DNA from: Marinitoga piezophila KA3
GTDB lineage: Bacteria; Thermotogota; Thermotogae; Petrotogales; Petrotogaceae
Reading direction: 5' to 3'
Length of the DNA: 64,000 nucleotides
Assembly: GCF_000255135.1 (NCBI RefSeq)
Contig: NC_016751.1
Span: forward strand, 496,001 to 560,000
The first letter of the stretch is position 1. Each line of letters starts with the position of its first letter. Positions 46,204 to 52,353 of this stretch are shown here, piece by piece. A program made the position numbers and the translations under genes. The notes below the pieces were generated by a model. The model ran no database searches. It worked only from the letters and a program-made list of their open reading frames with translations, and had not been told where the DNA came from.

Positions 46204-46245
46204 AAAATTAATATGGTCACCTTTTTGGTGACCATATTAATTTTA
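46204..46245. terminator. Bidirectional terminator between bacteriocin cluster and amylase
   Basis: An 18-bp perfect stem (46204-46221 with 46227-46244) with a five-T loop and T/A-rich ends serves both convergent transcripts. Confidence 0.9.
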
Positions 46246-48081
46246 TTCTTCTACCCAAACAGAGACAGAACCTCCATTAACTTTAAATTCTGCCCATCCA
46301 TAATCATTTGTCCAAATTTCCTCTTTTATATTCCCCAGCAAATCTATAAACTTTGTTTTTTTCTTTCCAACATACATCCATTTGCTTCCACCAGGACCAT
46401 CCGAAAGTATTACTGCCATGCTTTTTGGGTGTTCTTCGTCTCCCAATCTTGTCCAACCAATTATGTCTTGGTGATCTAAATAATCATATTGCTTTCCATA
46501 TGAATATAACTTTCTTGCTTCAATAAGTTTTTTAATTGTCCCATATTGTTCTTTTATTCCAGGAGCACCATACATATCCCCATAAAAAACACATGGATAA
46601 CCATCTTTTCGCAATAGAATCATTGCATAAGCTAAAGGTTTAAACCAATCCTGTACAGGAGAAGATAAAGACTGACCAGGCTGTGTGTCATGATTTTCAA
46701 CAAAAGTAACAGCTTTTATAGGATTTTTCTGAACAAGTGTTCCATTAAAAATATTTCTCATGTCATAATAGCCCCCAGAATTCGATGCCTCGTAAAAATG
46801 TTGATGCAATGGAACATCAAAGAGAGACATTCTACCTTCTGTTTTTGATATATAATTTTCTAGTTTATTAATATCTGTACTCCAATATTCTCCAACTGTA
46901 AATAATTCTTTTCCTAATACATTTCTCATATAATCCAGCCAATCATTAAAAAAACTAAATTTTATGTGTTTTACAGCATCTAATCTAAATCCATCAATTT
47001 TTGTAAAATTAACATACCATTTACCCCATTTTTTAAGTTCTTGTACAACTTCAGGATGATCCATATCAAGATCTGCACCCATTAAATAATCATAATTAAA
47101 ATTTTCATCATCCACTTCCCAATCCCATGCCTTTCCAATTCCATTAAACCTGAATATAGCTTTTTCACCAGTGTTTTGATCCCAATCTACACCATCAAAA
47201 TGATACCATCTCCATTTAAAATCTGAATATTTATTATTTCGTCCTGGAAAATTAAAAAGTGTCCATGCTTTTATTGTTTTATTTTCAATTTCAATATTCC
47301 TATTATTCCATGAAACTTTTGTTGCATTAACCCATTCTGTATTATCTGCTCCCATTTTATGATTAAATACAATATCGCCATAAACCTGTATATTATATAA
47401 ATGGGCATTTTCAATTAATTTTAAATATTGTTCTTTCGTTCCGTATTTTGTTGAAATAGTACCTTTTTGATTGAATTCTCCAAGATCATACAAATCATAG
47501 ACTCCATACCCCACATCACTTTTTCCTGCCTGCCCTTTATATGCTGGTGGAAGCCATAATGCCGTTATCCCCATTAAGGCTAAATCTGGAATTTTTTTTG
47601 ATAACTCTACCCATAATCCGCTTTTGGTTTTCTCATTATATTCTGGCAAATACCATTGAAAGGCCTGTAGCATTACACCATTTACAGCTTTTATATATTT
47701 TTCAACTTTTATATAATGAGTATCATCATAAAAAGTTATTTTATAAGTGGTGTAAGGTTCAACTTCATAATCATTAGCGGGATAACTTTCTTTCCAATCA
47801 CCAAAATGATCTATCTTAAATCTTGGTTTTCCATAACCATCTCCATTATTAAATTTAATTATAATTTGCCATGTATGAGGACCTATTTTAGACATATGAG
47901 TAATTCCCCAATTGTTTGGTGTGCCTCTAAAATATGCATTCCCCCATTCACTTTTAACTTCTTTTAAAATTTGTTTCTTTTCATGATATGATGTTTTCAG
48001 AGTTTGGTTAACACATCCATTTAAAATGAAAAAAAAAGATAAAAAAAACATAAAAACAAAAGTTACCACTAACTTTTTCAT
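46243..48081 (-). CDS. Lipoprotein alpha-amylase, GH13 (subfamily 5-like)
   Basis: The 612-residue protein has a lipoprotein signal with lipobox LNGC (Cys23), a starch-binding-like beta domain (about 40-128) and a GH13 barrel. The nucleophile is Asp368 in DGFRLDAVKH, the acid/base Glu398 in VGEYW, and the third acid Asp465 in VENHDTQPGQ. MLQAFQWYLPEY and the DIVFNHKMGAD region point to the GH13_5 liquefying amylases. It would be anchored in the envelope and cut starch or glycogen outside the cell, for later uptake. It is monocistronic, after GAAAGGAGAGG. Confidence 0.92.
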   Translation of the reverse strand: MKKLVVTFVFMFFLSFFFILNGCVNQTLKTSYHEKKQILKEVKSEWGNAYFRGTPNNWGITHMSKIGPHTWQIIIKFNNGDGYGKPRFKIDHFGDWKESYPANDYEVEPYTTYKITFYDDTHYIKVEKYIKAVNGVMLQAFQWYLPEYNEKTKSGLWVELSKKIPDLALMGITALWLPPAYKGQAGKSDVGYGVYDLYDLGEFNQKGTISTKYGTKEQYLKLIENAHLYNIQVYGDIVFNHKMGADNTEWVNATKVSWNNRNIEIENKTIKAWTLFNFPGRNNKYSDFKWRWYHFDGVDWDQNTGEKAIFRFNGIGKAWDWEVDDENFNYDYLMGADLDMDHPEVVQELKKWGKWYVNFTKIDGFRLDAVKHIKFSFFNDWLDYMRNVLGKELFTVGEYWSTDINKLENYISKTEGRMSLFDVPLHQHFYEASNSGGYYDMRNIFNGTLVQKNPIKAVTFVENHDTQPGQSLSSPVQDWFKPLAYAMILLRKDGYPCVFYGDMYGAPGIKEQYGTIKKLIEARKLYSYGKQYDYLDHQDIIGWTRLGDEEHPKSMAVILSDGPGGSKWMYVGKKKTKFIDLLGNIKEEIWTNDYGWAEFKVNGGSVSVWVEE

Positions 48082-48306: not shown

Positions 48307-50967
48307 TTACTGTATTAAATTTCTTATAGCTACATTCAATGTTGTTGTTAATGATAAGGTTAAATTATATTTATTTAATTCTGGAGAATAGAATCCTGCA
48401 AATTCAAAATTTAAAGGAATCATTGAATCGGTTAAGAAATAAAGTTTTGGCGATAATACAATTGATGTCCCTAATAAATTCTTTTCATCGGTATATTTAT
48501 ATAAAGCATTCAATGATATATTTACATTACCTAAAGAAAATAGATTATATACATTTAAACGATTTTCAGCATAAAAAGTCTGATGAAACAATTCAACATC
48601 CAATCCATAATAATATTTAACCTTGCTAAATTCAAAAGTAAATGTATTTGGAAATTCTTCATCAAATATTACTTCCCTGCCATTAAGCGCATTAAACATC
48701 TCAGCATTTGAATATGCAGCTTCTATACTGAAAGAATTAAAAAACTTTGAATAATTATCAAAGAAATATGCTGCATTTCCAATAATTCCATAATTATATT
48801 CATTATCTTCATTCATAAAATAATAACTACCATTTGTATATAATCCTGAATTAAATAATTCAGAAACTTCAAATCCAGTATATACATAATAATTTTCTAA
48901 ATCAAAAAGTTTTAAACCACCATAAAAAGCTTTATTCCCTGTTAATATTTTTGAAGGTAATCCTATATCAAGTTTTTGAGATAATGCAAATAATAAATCA
49001 ACATTAAATTCCTGAAATTTATTAATATAATCAAATGAAAAGTCCGATGAAAGTGAAAGCCATGGTGACGGATTGTATTTACCAATAAAATAAATACCTT
49101 CATATATTAGTTTTTTATCAAACCATGAATAGAAATCTTTTGGTTTTTTCATTAATGAAAAATATCCTACACCTAAAGAATAATATGGATATGCTTCAAA
49201 TGCTAAATAAGCCGTACTTTTTGATTCTAAAATATTTATTGGTTCATAATCTGTTTCAAAATTTATAGAATACGAATCATAATCTGAATAATTTGAATTT
49301 TCAGGAATTAAATTTGATTTTATTATTACAGGATAATGATTGTTTCTTCTATTCACATCAAATGTATGCATATCAGGATCAATATCTATTCTTTTTATAT
49401 TGGAAATATCGTATTTTAATACGGTACTATCTGTTGTTACAAAATCTATTGTAGCCTCTTTAGTTATAACCTGAACTCTAACTGGAACATGCTTATTATC
49501 TAAATCTATAACGAAATGATTATCCTGATATTTTATTGATGGATCGAAATTCTCTTTACTTTCAAATAAATCATATACAATTTCTTTTTTAACTCCATTC
49601 TTTATAAGAAATTCATAAAATTCTTCCTCTGAAGGATCTTTCTCATTATATTGTTTATAATACTTCGCAAGTAGTTCTGTGAATTTCTTTCTGGTTAATA
49701 GTTCTTCTAAAGAAAATAATGCTCTTTTTCCTTTTATATAATAAATTGAGGAAGCAAAGTTATATGGAATTTCATCAATGTTATCAGAAACTGCATTTTC
49801 TATATCAAAATACTCTAAATAAAATATACTTTTTTGATCCATTTCTGAAAATGTTTTGGGCATATTTTTAACAAGAGATTCTGTTAAAAAATCTGGCAAA
49901 TAAAAGTTCATTAATGGATCATTATCATACTTTTCAAACATGGAAATATGCGCAGAATAATCTGCAAAAGCCTCACTCATGAAATTATTGTCAAAAAAAT
50001 CAACGCCAACACCTATTCCAAACCAGAGATGTGCCAATTCATGTGATACTACATAAAATGTAAGTGGCTCAGTCAATCCCGGCAATAATAAATCTGCTGT
50101 GGTAAAAAATCCATCCCCAAGCAAAAACATTCCATCTGCTGCCATTCCATACATTCCCGGATATGGATCCTGAACTACATTTATATGAGAATACTTTAAT
50201 TTCCCATAATTTTCTGTATGTATTTCAAGCGCTTTTATTACATGCGTTGCCATTACAGCAGCTCTTTGTTCCTGGCCTTTTTTATACCAGATAGAAATTT
50301 CATAATCTCTGGCTTTAAGCTTTAATTCATTATAAACGTTTTTTTTCACAAACACTATTGGAAAAGAACGAAATTTTCCTTCTGAAACATAATAACCATC
50401 TATATATTTGCCAGAAAATACAGGAATATAATCTTTATTATTAATAGAATTAAACCTAACTTTTATATTATGCGCTTTTAATACATATCCGCCATTCTCT
50501 GGAAGTATCATTGGATACCATCCAAAACGCCATATAAATATGTCCTGATATGCAACATTATCAGCACCGTTCATTTTTACAAAATATGTTTTAAACTTGA
50601 TATGTATCTTCCTTTTATCTGTTTTTACAAGTAACACGCTATTTTTCAATTGATATTTTCTCAAATATTTAGAGTTATAATCTCCAATTGTATAATCCAG
50701 AGGTTCATTTTTCTCATCAGTAACCGTTAAAATCTCCATTTTTGTTTTACTATTAGATTCAAATAATGCATTTAGATATGGATTGTCTTTGCTATCCAAA
50801 TTTGGATATAATATAAATTGAGGTTTTTCGCCATTTTCCAATTCAACAGTCATATTTCCCCAAACAGCTGCTTCATCAGGAAGAAAGGTTAAATCAATTG
50901 TATATTTTGCTGAAAATACTATCACAAAAGATAATATAACCATAATAATCAGTAATACCTTTTTCAT
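48307..50967 (-). CDS. M1-type metallopeptidase fused to a putative outer-membrane beta-barrel
   Basis: The 886-residue protein has a signal peptide (about 1-20), an N-terminal beta domain, and a gluzincin domain with SHELAHLWFG (His309, Glu310, His313) and the third zinc ligand Glu332 in MSEAFADY, as in M1 aminopeptidases. The usual GxMEN exopeptidase motif is not obvious; GMYGMAADGM occupies its place. From about residue 590 to 886 the sequence is a series of amphipathic, aromatic-rich beta strands with turns, without helices or cysteines, like an outer-membrane barrel. It is preceded by a DUF4097 gene that it overlaps by 4 bases. Surface display of a peptidase is the simplest reading. Confidence 0.8.
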   Translation of the reverse strand: MKKVLLIIMVILSFVIVFSAKYTIDLTFLPDEAAVWGNMTVELENGEKPQFILYPNLDSKDNPYLNALFESNSKTKMEILTVTDEKNEPLDYTIGDYNSKYLRKYQLKNSVLLVKTDKRKIHIKFKTYFVKMNGADNVAYQDIFIWRFGWYPMILPENGGYVLKAHNIKVRFNSINNKDYIPVFSGKYIDGYYVSEGKFRSFPIVFVKKNVYNELKLKARDYEISIWYKKGQEQRAAVMATHVIKALEIHTENYGKLKYSHINVVQDPYPGMYGMAADGMFLLGDGFFTTADLLLPGLTEPLTFYVVSHELAHLWFGIGVGVDFFDNNFMSEAFADYSAHISMFEKYDNDPLMNFYLPDFLTESLVKNMPKTFSEMDQKSIFYLEYFDIENAVSDNIDEIPYNFASSIYYIKGKRALFSLEELLTRKKFTELLAKYYKQYNEKDPSEEEFYEFLIKNGVKKEIVYDLFESKENFDPSIKYQDNHFVIDLDNKHVPVRVQVITKEATIDFVTTDSTVLKYDISNIKRIDIDPDMHTFDVNRRNNHYPVIIKSNLIPENSNYSDYDSYSINFETDYEPINILESKSTAYLAFEAYPYYSLGVGYFSLMKKPKDFYSWFDKKLIYEGIYFIGKYNPSPWLSLSSDFSFDYINKFQEFNVDLLFALSQKLDIGLPSKILTGNKAFYGGLKLFDLENYYVYTGFEVSELFNSGLYTNGSYYFMNEDNEYNYGIIGNAAYFFDNYSKFFNSFSIEAAYSNAEMFNALNGREVIFDEEFPNTFTFEFSKVKYYYGLDVELFHQTFYAENRLNVYNLFSLGNVNISLNALYKYTDEKNLLGTSIVLSPKLYFLTDSMIPLNFEFAGFYSPELNKYNLTLSLTTTLNVAIRNLIQ

Positions 50968-51899
50968 TTATTTCCCCCTCCAAGCATTTCATCAAGGAAT
51001 TTAACAGCATTTTCTTCTGTATAACCTATACTTTCAAGAAGTTCTATGGCAAAAGAACGTGTTATTTTTTCAGTAAGCAATAACTCTAAAATCTTCTTTT
51101 CTTCAATTGTTAATACCATATTTTCCTCCTTTAAATTAGAAGAGTCTTTTAAATTTTCATTAACTTTATTATTCTCCTTGTTTATTTTTTCAACATTTTC
51201 AATTCTTTTTAATTCAATATTTAAATCACCAGAAACACTTATAAAATCAATTATTCTATTTTCTCTTTTTTGATTAAATTCCACATCTATACCTTTTAAA
51301 TATATATCTCCACTTGCTGTTTTTTTATTTACATAAACCTTTTCATTTCCAGCAATAACTAAATCACAATCACCAGAAACATTCTTTACATAAACCTTTT
51401 CAAAGTCTTCGATTAAATAATCCACACTTAAATCACCAGAAACATTCTTAAAGTCTATAACCTTACATGGAGTTTTTGAAATATCAAGATCACCACTGGT
51501 ACTTGAAAAATTGATTACATCAATGGAAGAGTTATTTATGTCAGTATCTCCAGAAACAGTTTTTATATCAAATTTTTTTAAAGTTATGCCGTTACAGTCA
51601 CAATCACCGGTAACACTATTAATTGAAAGTTCTTCAATATCTTTAGAAATTTTTAATGTTGCATCACCATATACTCCACCTGAAAATCCAAAAAATTTCT
51701 TTAAAAAGGAATTTTCTTCTTTTTTTACCTCGATAATCCATGTATCTCCTTTTACGTTTTCAACAATTTCACAATCCGATGGAAGATCATCATACTCAAA
51801 AATATTTGTTTCATTTTTTGATGAAACAACATCAAGATCAATACCTACTGCTTTAATAACAATCTTCTTCACTCCATCCCGCGTTAAGATTCCATTCAT
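50964..51899 (-). CDS. DUF4097-type beta-repeat protein
   Basis: The 311-residue protein has no signal peptide. From about residue 70 to 220 it carries repeats of about 20 residues built on VSGD or TSGD (for example NSVTGDCDC, KTVSGDTDI, SSTSGDLDI, KNVSGDLSV, KNVSGDCDL and TASGDIYL), which is the DUF4097 right-handed beta-helix pattern. A charged linker leads to a small C-terminal helical domain (about 255-305, EEKKILELLLTEKITRSFAIELLESIG). This combination is common next to DUF2089 regulators. Its function is unknown; the lack of export signal suggests a cytoplasmic partner of the regulator. Confidence 0.82.
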   Translation of the reverse strand: MNGILTRDGVKKIVIKAVGIDLDVVSSKNETNIFEYDDLPSDCEIVENVKGDTWIIEVKKEENSFLKKFFGFSGGVYGDATLKISKDIEELSINSVTGDCDCNGITLKKFDIKTVSGDTDINNSSIDVINFSSTSGDLDISKTPCKVIDFKNVSGDLSVDYLIEDFEKVYVKNVSGDCDLVIAGNEKVYVNKKTASGDIYLKGIDVEFNQKRENRIIDFISVSGDLNIELKRIENVEKINKENNKVNENLKDSSNLKEENMVLTIEEKKILELLLTEKITRSFAIELLESIGYTEENAVKFLDEMLGGGNK

Positions 51900-52270
51900 T
51901 CTTTATTCCCCTTTCCTTTTAAGATTTCTTTGGCTTCTTCAGGAGTAAGTTCTCCTTTTTCTATTTTTTCAAGGATTTTCAAGGTATCAACTGTATTCTT
52001 TTTCTCATCAAATCCCATAGCCCTTACAACACCTTCAAGCCTTGCTTTTGCTGTTGGATATGATATGCCTATTTCTTTTTGAACATCAGAAAGATTTCCT
52101 CTGTTTTTAATAAATATCTTTAAAAAATATAATTGTTCATCTGAAAGTTTTGCAAAATCATCAAGGTGGAAACTACCTTTTATTGTAATATCACATGTTG
52201 GACATCTAAATTCAGAAATAACAAGATCACCACCACATACAGGACATCTGGTTAAACGTTTTTTCTTCAT
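51896..52270 (-). CDS. DUF2089 family putative transcriptional regulator
   Basis: The protein of about 124 residues begins with a zinc-ribbon (CPVCGGDL and CPTCD, about 8-29), then a helix-turn-helix-like section with LSDVQKEIGISYPTAKARLEGVV (about 60-82), and ends in a short acidic helix (LEKIEKGELTPEEAKEILKG). This is the DUF2089 layout. ISYPTAKARL is the likely recognition helix. It overlaps the DUF4097 gene by 4 bases and is the first gene of the operon, with a promoter set inside an inverted repeat, which fits autoregulation. The start at ATG 52270 follows CTGGAGGTGACATG. Confidence 0.85.
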   Translation of the reverse strand: MKKKRLTRCPVCGGDLVISEFRCPTCDITIKGSFHLDDFAKLSDEQLYFLKIFIKNRGNLSDVQKEIGISYPTAKARLEGVVRAMGFDEKKNTVDTLKILEKIEKGELTPEEAKEILKGKGNKE

Positions 52271-52312
52271 CATGTCACCTCCAGGAATTTAAAAATTTTT
52301 ATTTACATAATA

Positions 52313-52353
52313 AATAATACCACTTAACTTTAAAAAAGTCAAGTGGTATTATT
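52313..52353 (-). promoter_or_regulatory. Promoter within a 13-bp inverted repeat (DUF2089 operon)
   Basis: On the minus strand TTGACT (52342-52337), a 17-base spacer and TATTAT (52319-52314) form a good promoter. The same bases lie in an inverted repeat with 13-bp perfect arms, AATAATACCACTT (52313-52325) and AAGTGGTATTATT (52341-52353). Each arm covers one promoter element, as expected of an operator for a dimeric repressor. The stem could also act as a terminator for the nicotinamidase gene upstream. Confidence 0.6.

Follow-up and report, generated by a model that had tools for sequence, protein, structure and literature searches.

On the minus strand of the window, the 64,000-nucleotide stretch of DNA analysed here from Marinitoga piezophila, a deep-sea thermophile, lies a gene whose 886-residue product is an M1 enzyme without the exopeptidase signature of its family, carried on a probable outer-membrane beta-barrel (Table 1). 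Tentatively, the protein may be an outer-membrane M1 endopeptidase that acts as effector of a Marinitoga stress module (DUF2089 regulator, cytoplasmic toastrack and palindromic promoter), the response to envelope stress then including proteolysis in the toga. Fusions of M1 enzymes to barrels may also be a class of outer-membrane proteases overlooked across Thermotogota and Bacteroidota, at least. Such fusions would so far have gone unannotated: the libraries searched recognise PF01433 alone.

How Thermotogota police or remodel the toga, their loose outer membrane, is poorly understood, and a toga-embedded zinc peptidase, wired to a stress module in one genus, would offer a concrete handle on this. 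The M1 scaffold has long been equated with aminopeptidases; here it would occur as a membrane-anchored enzyme without the motif that grips the end of the chain.

Table 1. Features of the peptidase gene and its operon (window coordinates)
Feature	Position	Strand	Basis or remark
M1-type peptidase and probable outer-membrane beta-barrel fusion, 886 aa	48307..50967	(-)	ORF call, PF01433, family
Sec-type signal peptide, residues 1-20, no lipobox Cys	50908..50967	(-)	by eye from translation
M1 domain I (beta N-domain), residues 21-210	50338..50907	(-)	AlphaFold2 model aligned to tricorn factor F3
M1 domain II, catalytic, residues 211-465	49573..50337	(-)	PF01433 and fold
GMAADG, residues 274-279, in place of canonical AMENxG (Glu to Ala276)	50131..50148	(-)	profile alignments
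HELAH, residues 309-313, zinc ligands and general base	50029..50043	(-)	HExxH invariant in family
Glu332, third zinc ligand (HExxH-x18-E)	49972..49974	(-)	invariant in family
Tyr410-x-Lys-Gly, M1 catalytic-tyrosine motif	49729..49740	(-)	aligned with canonical Y-x-K-G
M1 domain III (beta-sandwich), residues 466-545, ending in conserved DPD...DxxRxNNHYP	49333..49572	(-)	alignments and fold
Probable transmembrane beta-barrel, residues 560-886, roughly 14-16 strands	48310..49290	(-)	alternation and composition
Toastrack (DUF4097) protein, SHOCT-like C-terminal end	50964..51899	(-)	stop overlaps peptidase start (ATGA)
DUF2089 regulator (zinc ribbon, HTH, SHOCT-like)	51896..52273	(-)	stop overlaps toastrack start
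Palindromic promoter/operator upstream of operon	52313..52353	(-)	one place per genome in 7/7 Marinitoga

The enzyme part and its active site

An earlier note on this DNA had read a signal peptide and an HELAH-x18-E zinc site of M1 type from the open reading frame, with no strand given; the coding strand is the minus strand, and both features are present in its translation. The N-terminal sequence, MKKVLLIIMVILSFVIVFSA, looks by eye like a Sec-type signal in which the lipobox cysteine is absent, and the N-termini of the full-length relatives are hydrophobic too. Peptidase_M1 (PF01433) is the sole Pfam domain in the whole protein and covers residues 273-458, scoring 54.3 bits where the curated cut-off is 27.7 (E 1.8e-14); NCBIfam gave only a weak PepN match, far under its cut-off. 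About 225 bases downstream on the same strand (window 46243-48081) lies the next gene, which encodes an exported alpha-amylase with a lipobox-like cysteine (LNGC).

An AlphaFold2 model of the protein was fairly confident over most of residues 20-530, and the top Foldseek match for it was tricorn-interacting factor F3 (E 3.6e-19). When residues 17-594 of the model were aligned by VIA-align with residues 1-550 of F3 (1z1w), 449 residues could be superposed with a Z score of 32.0 and an rmsd of 3.4. The first three domains of the M1 fold, I-III, are thus all present. In canonical M1 profiles nothing corresponds to the C-terminus (hhalign probability 0.03%), and the helical domain IV of F3, PepN and ERAP1 is for this reason judged to be absent, a predicted strand-rich domain standing there instead.

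The zinc ligands His309, His313 and Glu332, the base Glu310 and the Tyr410-x-Lys412-Gly413 motif are all kept, and His309, Glu310, His313, Glu332, Tyr410 and Lys412 are invariant across the family alignments made. The GxMEN motif of M1 exopeptidases had been reported as not evident, and profile alignment confirms that it is missing: G274-M-A-A-D-G279 aligns onto the canonical A-M-E-N-x-G with Ala276 at the position of the glutamate, a placement given alike by the alignments with Bacteroidota relatives and with profiles of canonical M1 proteins. Every Thermotogota member that covers the site reads G-[MIL]-[AT]-[AT]-x-G, so position 276 is Ala or Thr only and the asparagine of GxMEN has likewise given way to Ala or Thr.

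A survey of the M1 family reports mutagenesis that ties the Glu and Asn of GxMEN to transition-state stabilisation, and the two residues perhaps also touch the N-terminus of the substrate (PMC2241622). The loss of the motif argues, though not conclusively, against ordinary aminopeptidase action. The suggestion of the earlier note that the enzyme may cut differently from normal M1 aminopeptidases gains support from the consistent loss of the Glu, with the caveat that aminopeptidase O (Ap-O), which retains just the Met of GxMEN, is nevertheless called an aminopeptidase (PMC2241622). It is possible, though rather doubtful, that the Marinitoga protein is an aminopeptidase still and holds the N-terminus in another way, as may hold for Ap-O. 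The three-domain M1 fold, the tyrosine and the zinc site are all intact, which together with the Ap-O precedent (PMC2241622) would suit such an enzyme, but it would have to dispense with domain IV and, in all covered members, with both the Glu and the Asn, and Bacteroidota relatives of like layout retain the Glu.

Operon, orientation and proposed action

The gene order is DUF2089, toastrack, peptidase, with an ATGA overlap at both junctions. All three genes are found in this order in five of seven Marinitoga genomes; in G042 the DUF2089 gene immediately precedes the peptidase gene, and in G040 the peptidase is on a different contig from the DUF2089-toastrack pair. Judged from these arrangements, the peptidase is translationally coupled to the DUF2089-toastrack module in most Marinitoga. 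In Marinitoga lauensis (L026:7100-10609) the toastrack and peptidase genes are both split by frameshifts or stops; as the assembly is only 87% complete, sequencing error is possible.

Before the DUF2089 gene there is a near-perfect palindrome, TACCACTTGACTTTTTTAAAGTTAAGTGGTATTATT, with -35/-10-like boxes within it. It is nearly unchanged between Marinitoga species while the flanking spacer has diverged, and it is probably a dedicated operator of the DUF2089-toastrack-peptidase operon. DUF2089-toastrack contexts are likely Lia-like membrane-stress modules in which the toastrack is cytoplasmic, according to a survey of phage-shock-protein partners (PMC11237479). Outside Marinitoga the neighbours of the peptidase gene differ and the stress operon is limited to Marinitoga; the link to stress is therefore a genus-level one. 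In two Marinitoga genomes (L106:10294-15821 and L107:2226-7818) the peptidase gene adjoins, by eye, a UDP-GlcNAc 2-epimerase-like gene, with two exported, strand-rich-looking proteins of 440-460 residues encoded nearby, and an epimerase-like gene also lies downstream of the peptidase gene in G019 (L108).

The chances are about even that the protein is an M1 endopeptidase which is anchored in the outer membrane, faces the periplasm and serves in quality control of the envelope; we infer its periplasmic orientation, its endopeptidase activity and its quality-control role. The protein would be exported by Sec, and BAM would put the C-terminal beta-barrel into the outer membrane, i.e. the toga. 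An even number of strands would leave both ends of the barrel in the periplasm, and a short linker would keep the three folded M1 domains close to the membrane on that side. The catalytic-type tyrosine and the zinc site are retained. The glutamate that in other M1 enzymes holds a free N-terminus is lost and so, by sequence, is helical domain IV, which closes off the chamber of canonical M1 enzymes. With both of these gone, the opened site should admit internal segments of chains that are large or unfolded, and the enzyme would be an endopeptidase or at least independent of the N-terminus. Misfolded outer-membrane and periplasmic proteins would be removed or processed in a manner resembling that of the M48 peptidase BepA of E. 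coli, and in Marinitoga expression would be tied to the Lia-like envelope-stress module of DUF2089 and toastrack.

The fusion had been thought to display or tether the peptidase at the toga. A tether facing the periplasm is the likelier of the two, and surface display is ranked below it as less likely, since an even-stranded barrel would leave both its ends in the periplasm and the linker is only some 15-20 residues long. Surface display would require the barrel to export the M1 domain, in the manner of an autotransporter or type V-like system, and the enzyme would then digest peptides of the medium for fermentation. Thermotogota do ferment peptides, and an N-terminal passenger followed by a barrel is the classic autotransporter order, in which the M28 aminopeptidase AaaA of Pseudomonas is tethered to the cell surface (PMC3426542). 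The proposal seems unlikely nonetheless: no Pfam autotransporter domain is matched at E up to 5, the linker is short, an inflexible metalloenzyme of three domains and about 520 residues would be an improbable passenger, and the operon link to a stress module points elsewhere. Furthermore PlpD, the best-studied enzyme-barrel fusion and long held to be such a case, has its N-terminal enzyme in the periplasm (PMC11116518).

The C-terminal domain and its distribution

Amphipathic strands resembling an outer-membrane barrel had been described over about 300 residues at the C-terminus. The domain comprises 327 residues and its amphipathicity is beyond chance: averaged over the family, the hydrophobic alternation of residues 540-886 was above that of all 500 shuffles (z 4.1). 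The corresponding z values were 4.7 for the Omp85 barrels of the phylum, 0.6 for M1 domain I and -1.3 for the catalytic domain. The beta-sandwich of M1 domain III alternates as well (z 2.5), so alternation alone is unspecific. In composition, the C-terminus has 16.4% charged, 30.7% Gly/Ser/Asn/Thr and 17.3% aromatic residues, compared with 19.1% charged, 31.1% small polar and 15.5% aromatic in the Omp85 barrels and 23-30%, 22-24% and 9-16%, respectively, in the soluble domains. This trend is present in each of 20 members. Greedy picking gave 17 alternating ten-residue segments, the first of them in the linker, and the outward face of most of the predicted strands is nearly free of charge.

For residues 560-886 no significant match was obtained in Pfam, NCBIfam or the PDB, whether singly or with 14 members aligned. 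Up to E 5, Pfam gave nothing for the C-terminus of the 14 members, PF01103 and the autotransporter family included; over the three libraries the only matches were at chance level (7tgh, 0.056; NF047328 OMP_TP0733, 0.028, for one member). There was no detectable homology to the Omp85 barrel of the phylum (hhalign 1.7%), nor did profile comparison connect the domain with another known barrel family, and Pfam, which gave PF01433 only, revealed no POTRA domain in the 886-residue protein. The C-terminal residue is other than Phe or Trp, unlike that of many outer-membrane proteins.

Structure prediction of residues 560-886, the check that the earlier note had named, relied on few sequences and showed neither a barrel nor a beta-sandwich: residues 535-886 of the full-length AlphaFold2 model (11-row alignment) had a pLDDT of about 30, and the C-terminus of a relative (L027, three-row alignment) one of 31. 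The low-confidence C-terminal model consists mostly of antiparallel-looking strands with no closed barrel.

The host phylum is diderm, Omp85 having been detected in 36 of 41 Thermotogota genomes. None of the three Marinitoga genomes searched (G000, G043 and G040) gave a PF01103 Omp85 match; the BamA of Marinitoga may be too diverged for this profile.

Bacteroidota M1 proteins of about 970-1060 residues are collinear with the family as far as residue 575 of the Marinitoga protein (profile position 593; 99.9%, E 2.3e-33). For the C-terminus of these proteins, alignment to the Omp85 barrels of Thermotogota has a probability of 91.5% (E 8.7e-7). In these proteins (loci L149, L155-L159, L162-L164 and L166) Pfam annotates the M1 domain alone. 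The C-terminus of the Thermotogota fusion has no detectable homology to the Bacteroidota one. A literature search found no paper on an M1-barrel fusion, the Bacteroidota proteins included.

The amphipathicity, the composition, the conserved fusion and the existence of Bacteroidota M1-Omp85 relatives all support the proposed joining of an M1 peptidase to an outer-membrane barrel, and residues 560-886 are very probably a transmembrane one. That they form instead a soluble beta-rich domain (a sandwich array or propeller-like) of a secreted or peptidoglycan-associated protein would agree with the absence of any recognised barrel family, with the lack of a closed barrel in the AlphaFold2 model and with the alternation of domain III, but is improbable given a composition that fits the Omp85 barrels of the phylum (16/31/17% against 19/31/16%) and not the soluble domains, the almost uncharged outward faces of most predicted strands, and the Omp85-like C-terminus borne in the same place by the Bacteroidota relatives.

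The protein was matched in 22 of 103 Thermotogota genomes, and its layout is common to all 20 readable members of the family, which thus spans part of the phylum. In 21 of those 22 genomes the C-terminal profile matched as part of the fusion; among the 103 genomes it matched at full length nowhere else, and its one other match was a 173-residue open frame in a different genome, G100. PF01433 was above its cut-off in 21 Thermotogota genomes, always in the fusion except for an extra 401-residue protein in G019 (L154:1208-2410). This second M1-like protein has an HEISH motif, no GxMEN and no evident signal peptide.

In a protein tree the members cluster by host family, except for the single f9 member, which stands weakly (82/87) beside f2. 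Largely vertical descent, accompanied by numerous losses, would explain this most simply. Marinitoga lauensis and a Thermotogaceae MAG were the named relatives among the matches listed from a scan of 84,980 species genomes. There was no match in a single-protein scan of genome contigs or in the viral contigs searched for the family. No member of the family was found in 140 genomes of the phylum of G109, in a search run without a positive control, and in the phylum of G103 only the catalytic domain was matched, in 2 of 47 genomes.

Comparison with known systems

The three- and four-domain M1 peptidases (F3, 1z1w; E. coli PepN; ERAP1/2) share with the Thermotogota fusion domains I-III in the same order, the HExxH-x18-E zinc site and the Tyr-x-Lys-Gly motif. 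The fusion differs from them in that the Glu and Asn of GxMEN are lost, domain IV is replaced by a probable barrel and the protein carries a predicted export signal.

Metalloenzymes attached to outer-membrane barrels also occur in the 'Metallo' Omp85 subfamily, whose PF00149 domain we take to be a calcineurin-like phosphoesterase fold, other than M1. Heinz and Lithgow (2014) proposed periplasmic quality control or surface delivery for this subfamily, which resembles the fusion in joining a metalloenzyme to an outer-membrane barrel (PMC4104836). PlpD (patatin-POTRA-Omp85 barrel) likewise combines an N-terminal enzyme with a C-terminal outer-membrane barrel (PMC11116518), but its enzyme is a lipase domain, and it has a POTRA domain and a 16-strand Omp85 barrel.

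BepA resembles the proposed enzyme in being a zinc peptidase of the periplasm that takes part in the quality control of outer-membrane proteins, where it degrades LptD that has stalled (PMC8423444), but it belongs to another peptidase family (M48) and lacks a barrel anchor. In AaaA a zinc exopeptidase is held on a barrel tether (PMC3426542); here the enzyme is of the M28 family, the barrel is that of an autotransporter and the passenger is outside. Ap-O has the M1 zinc site and has lost GxMEN except for the Met (PMC2241622), but is a vertebrate protein with no barrel.

From the sequence comparisons, the nearest architectural relatives of the fusion are the Bacteroidota M1 proteins with an Omp85-like C-terminus. 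They have in common with it an export signal, collinear domains I-III, a DP..DR.NN-like linker and a barrel-like C-terminus, and differ in that their barrel can be aligned to Omp85 and that most of them keep GMEYP/GGGMEYP intact.
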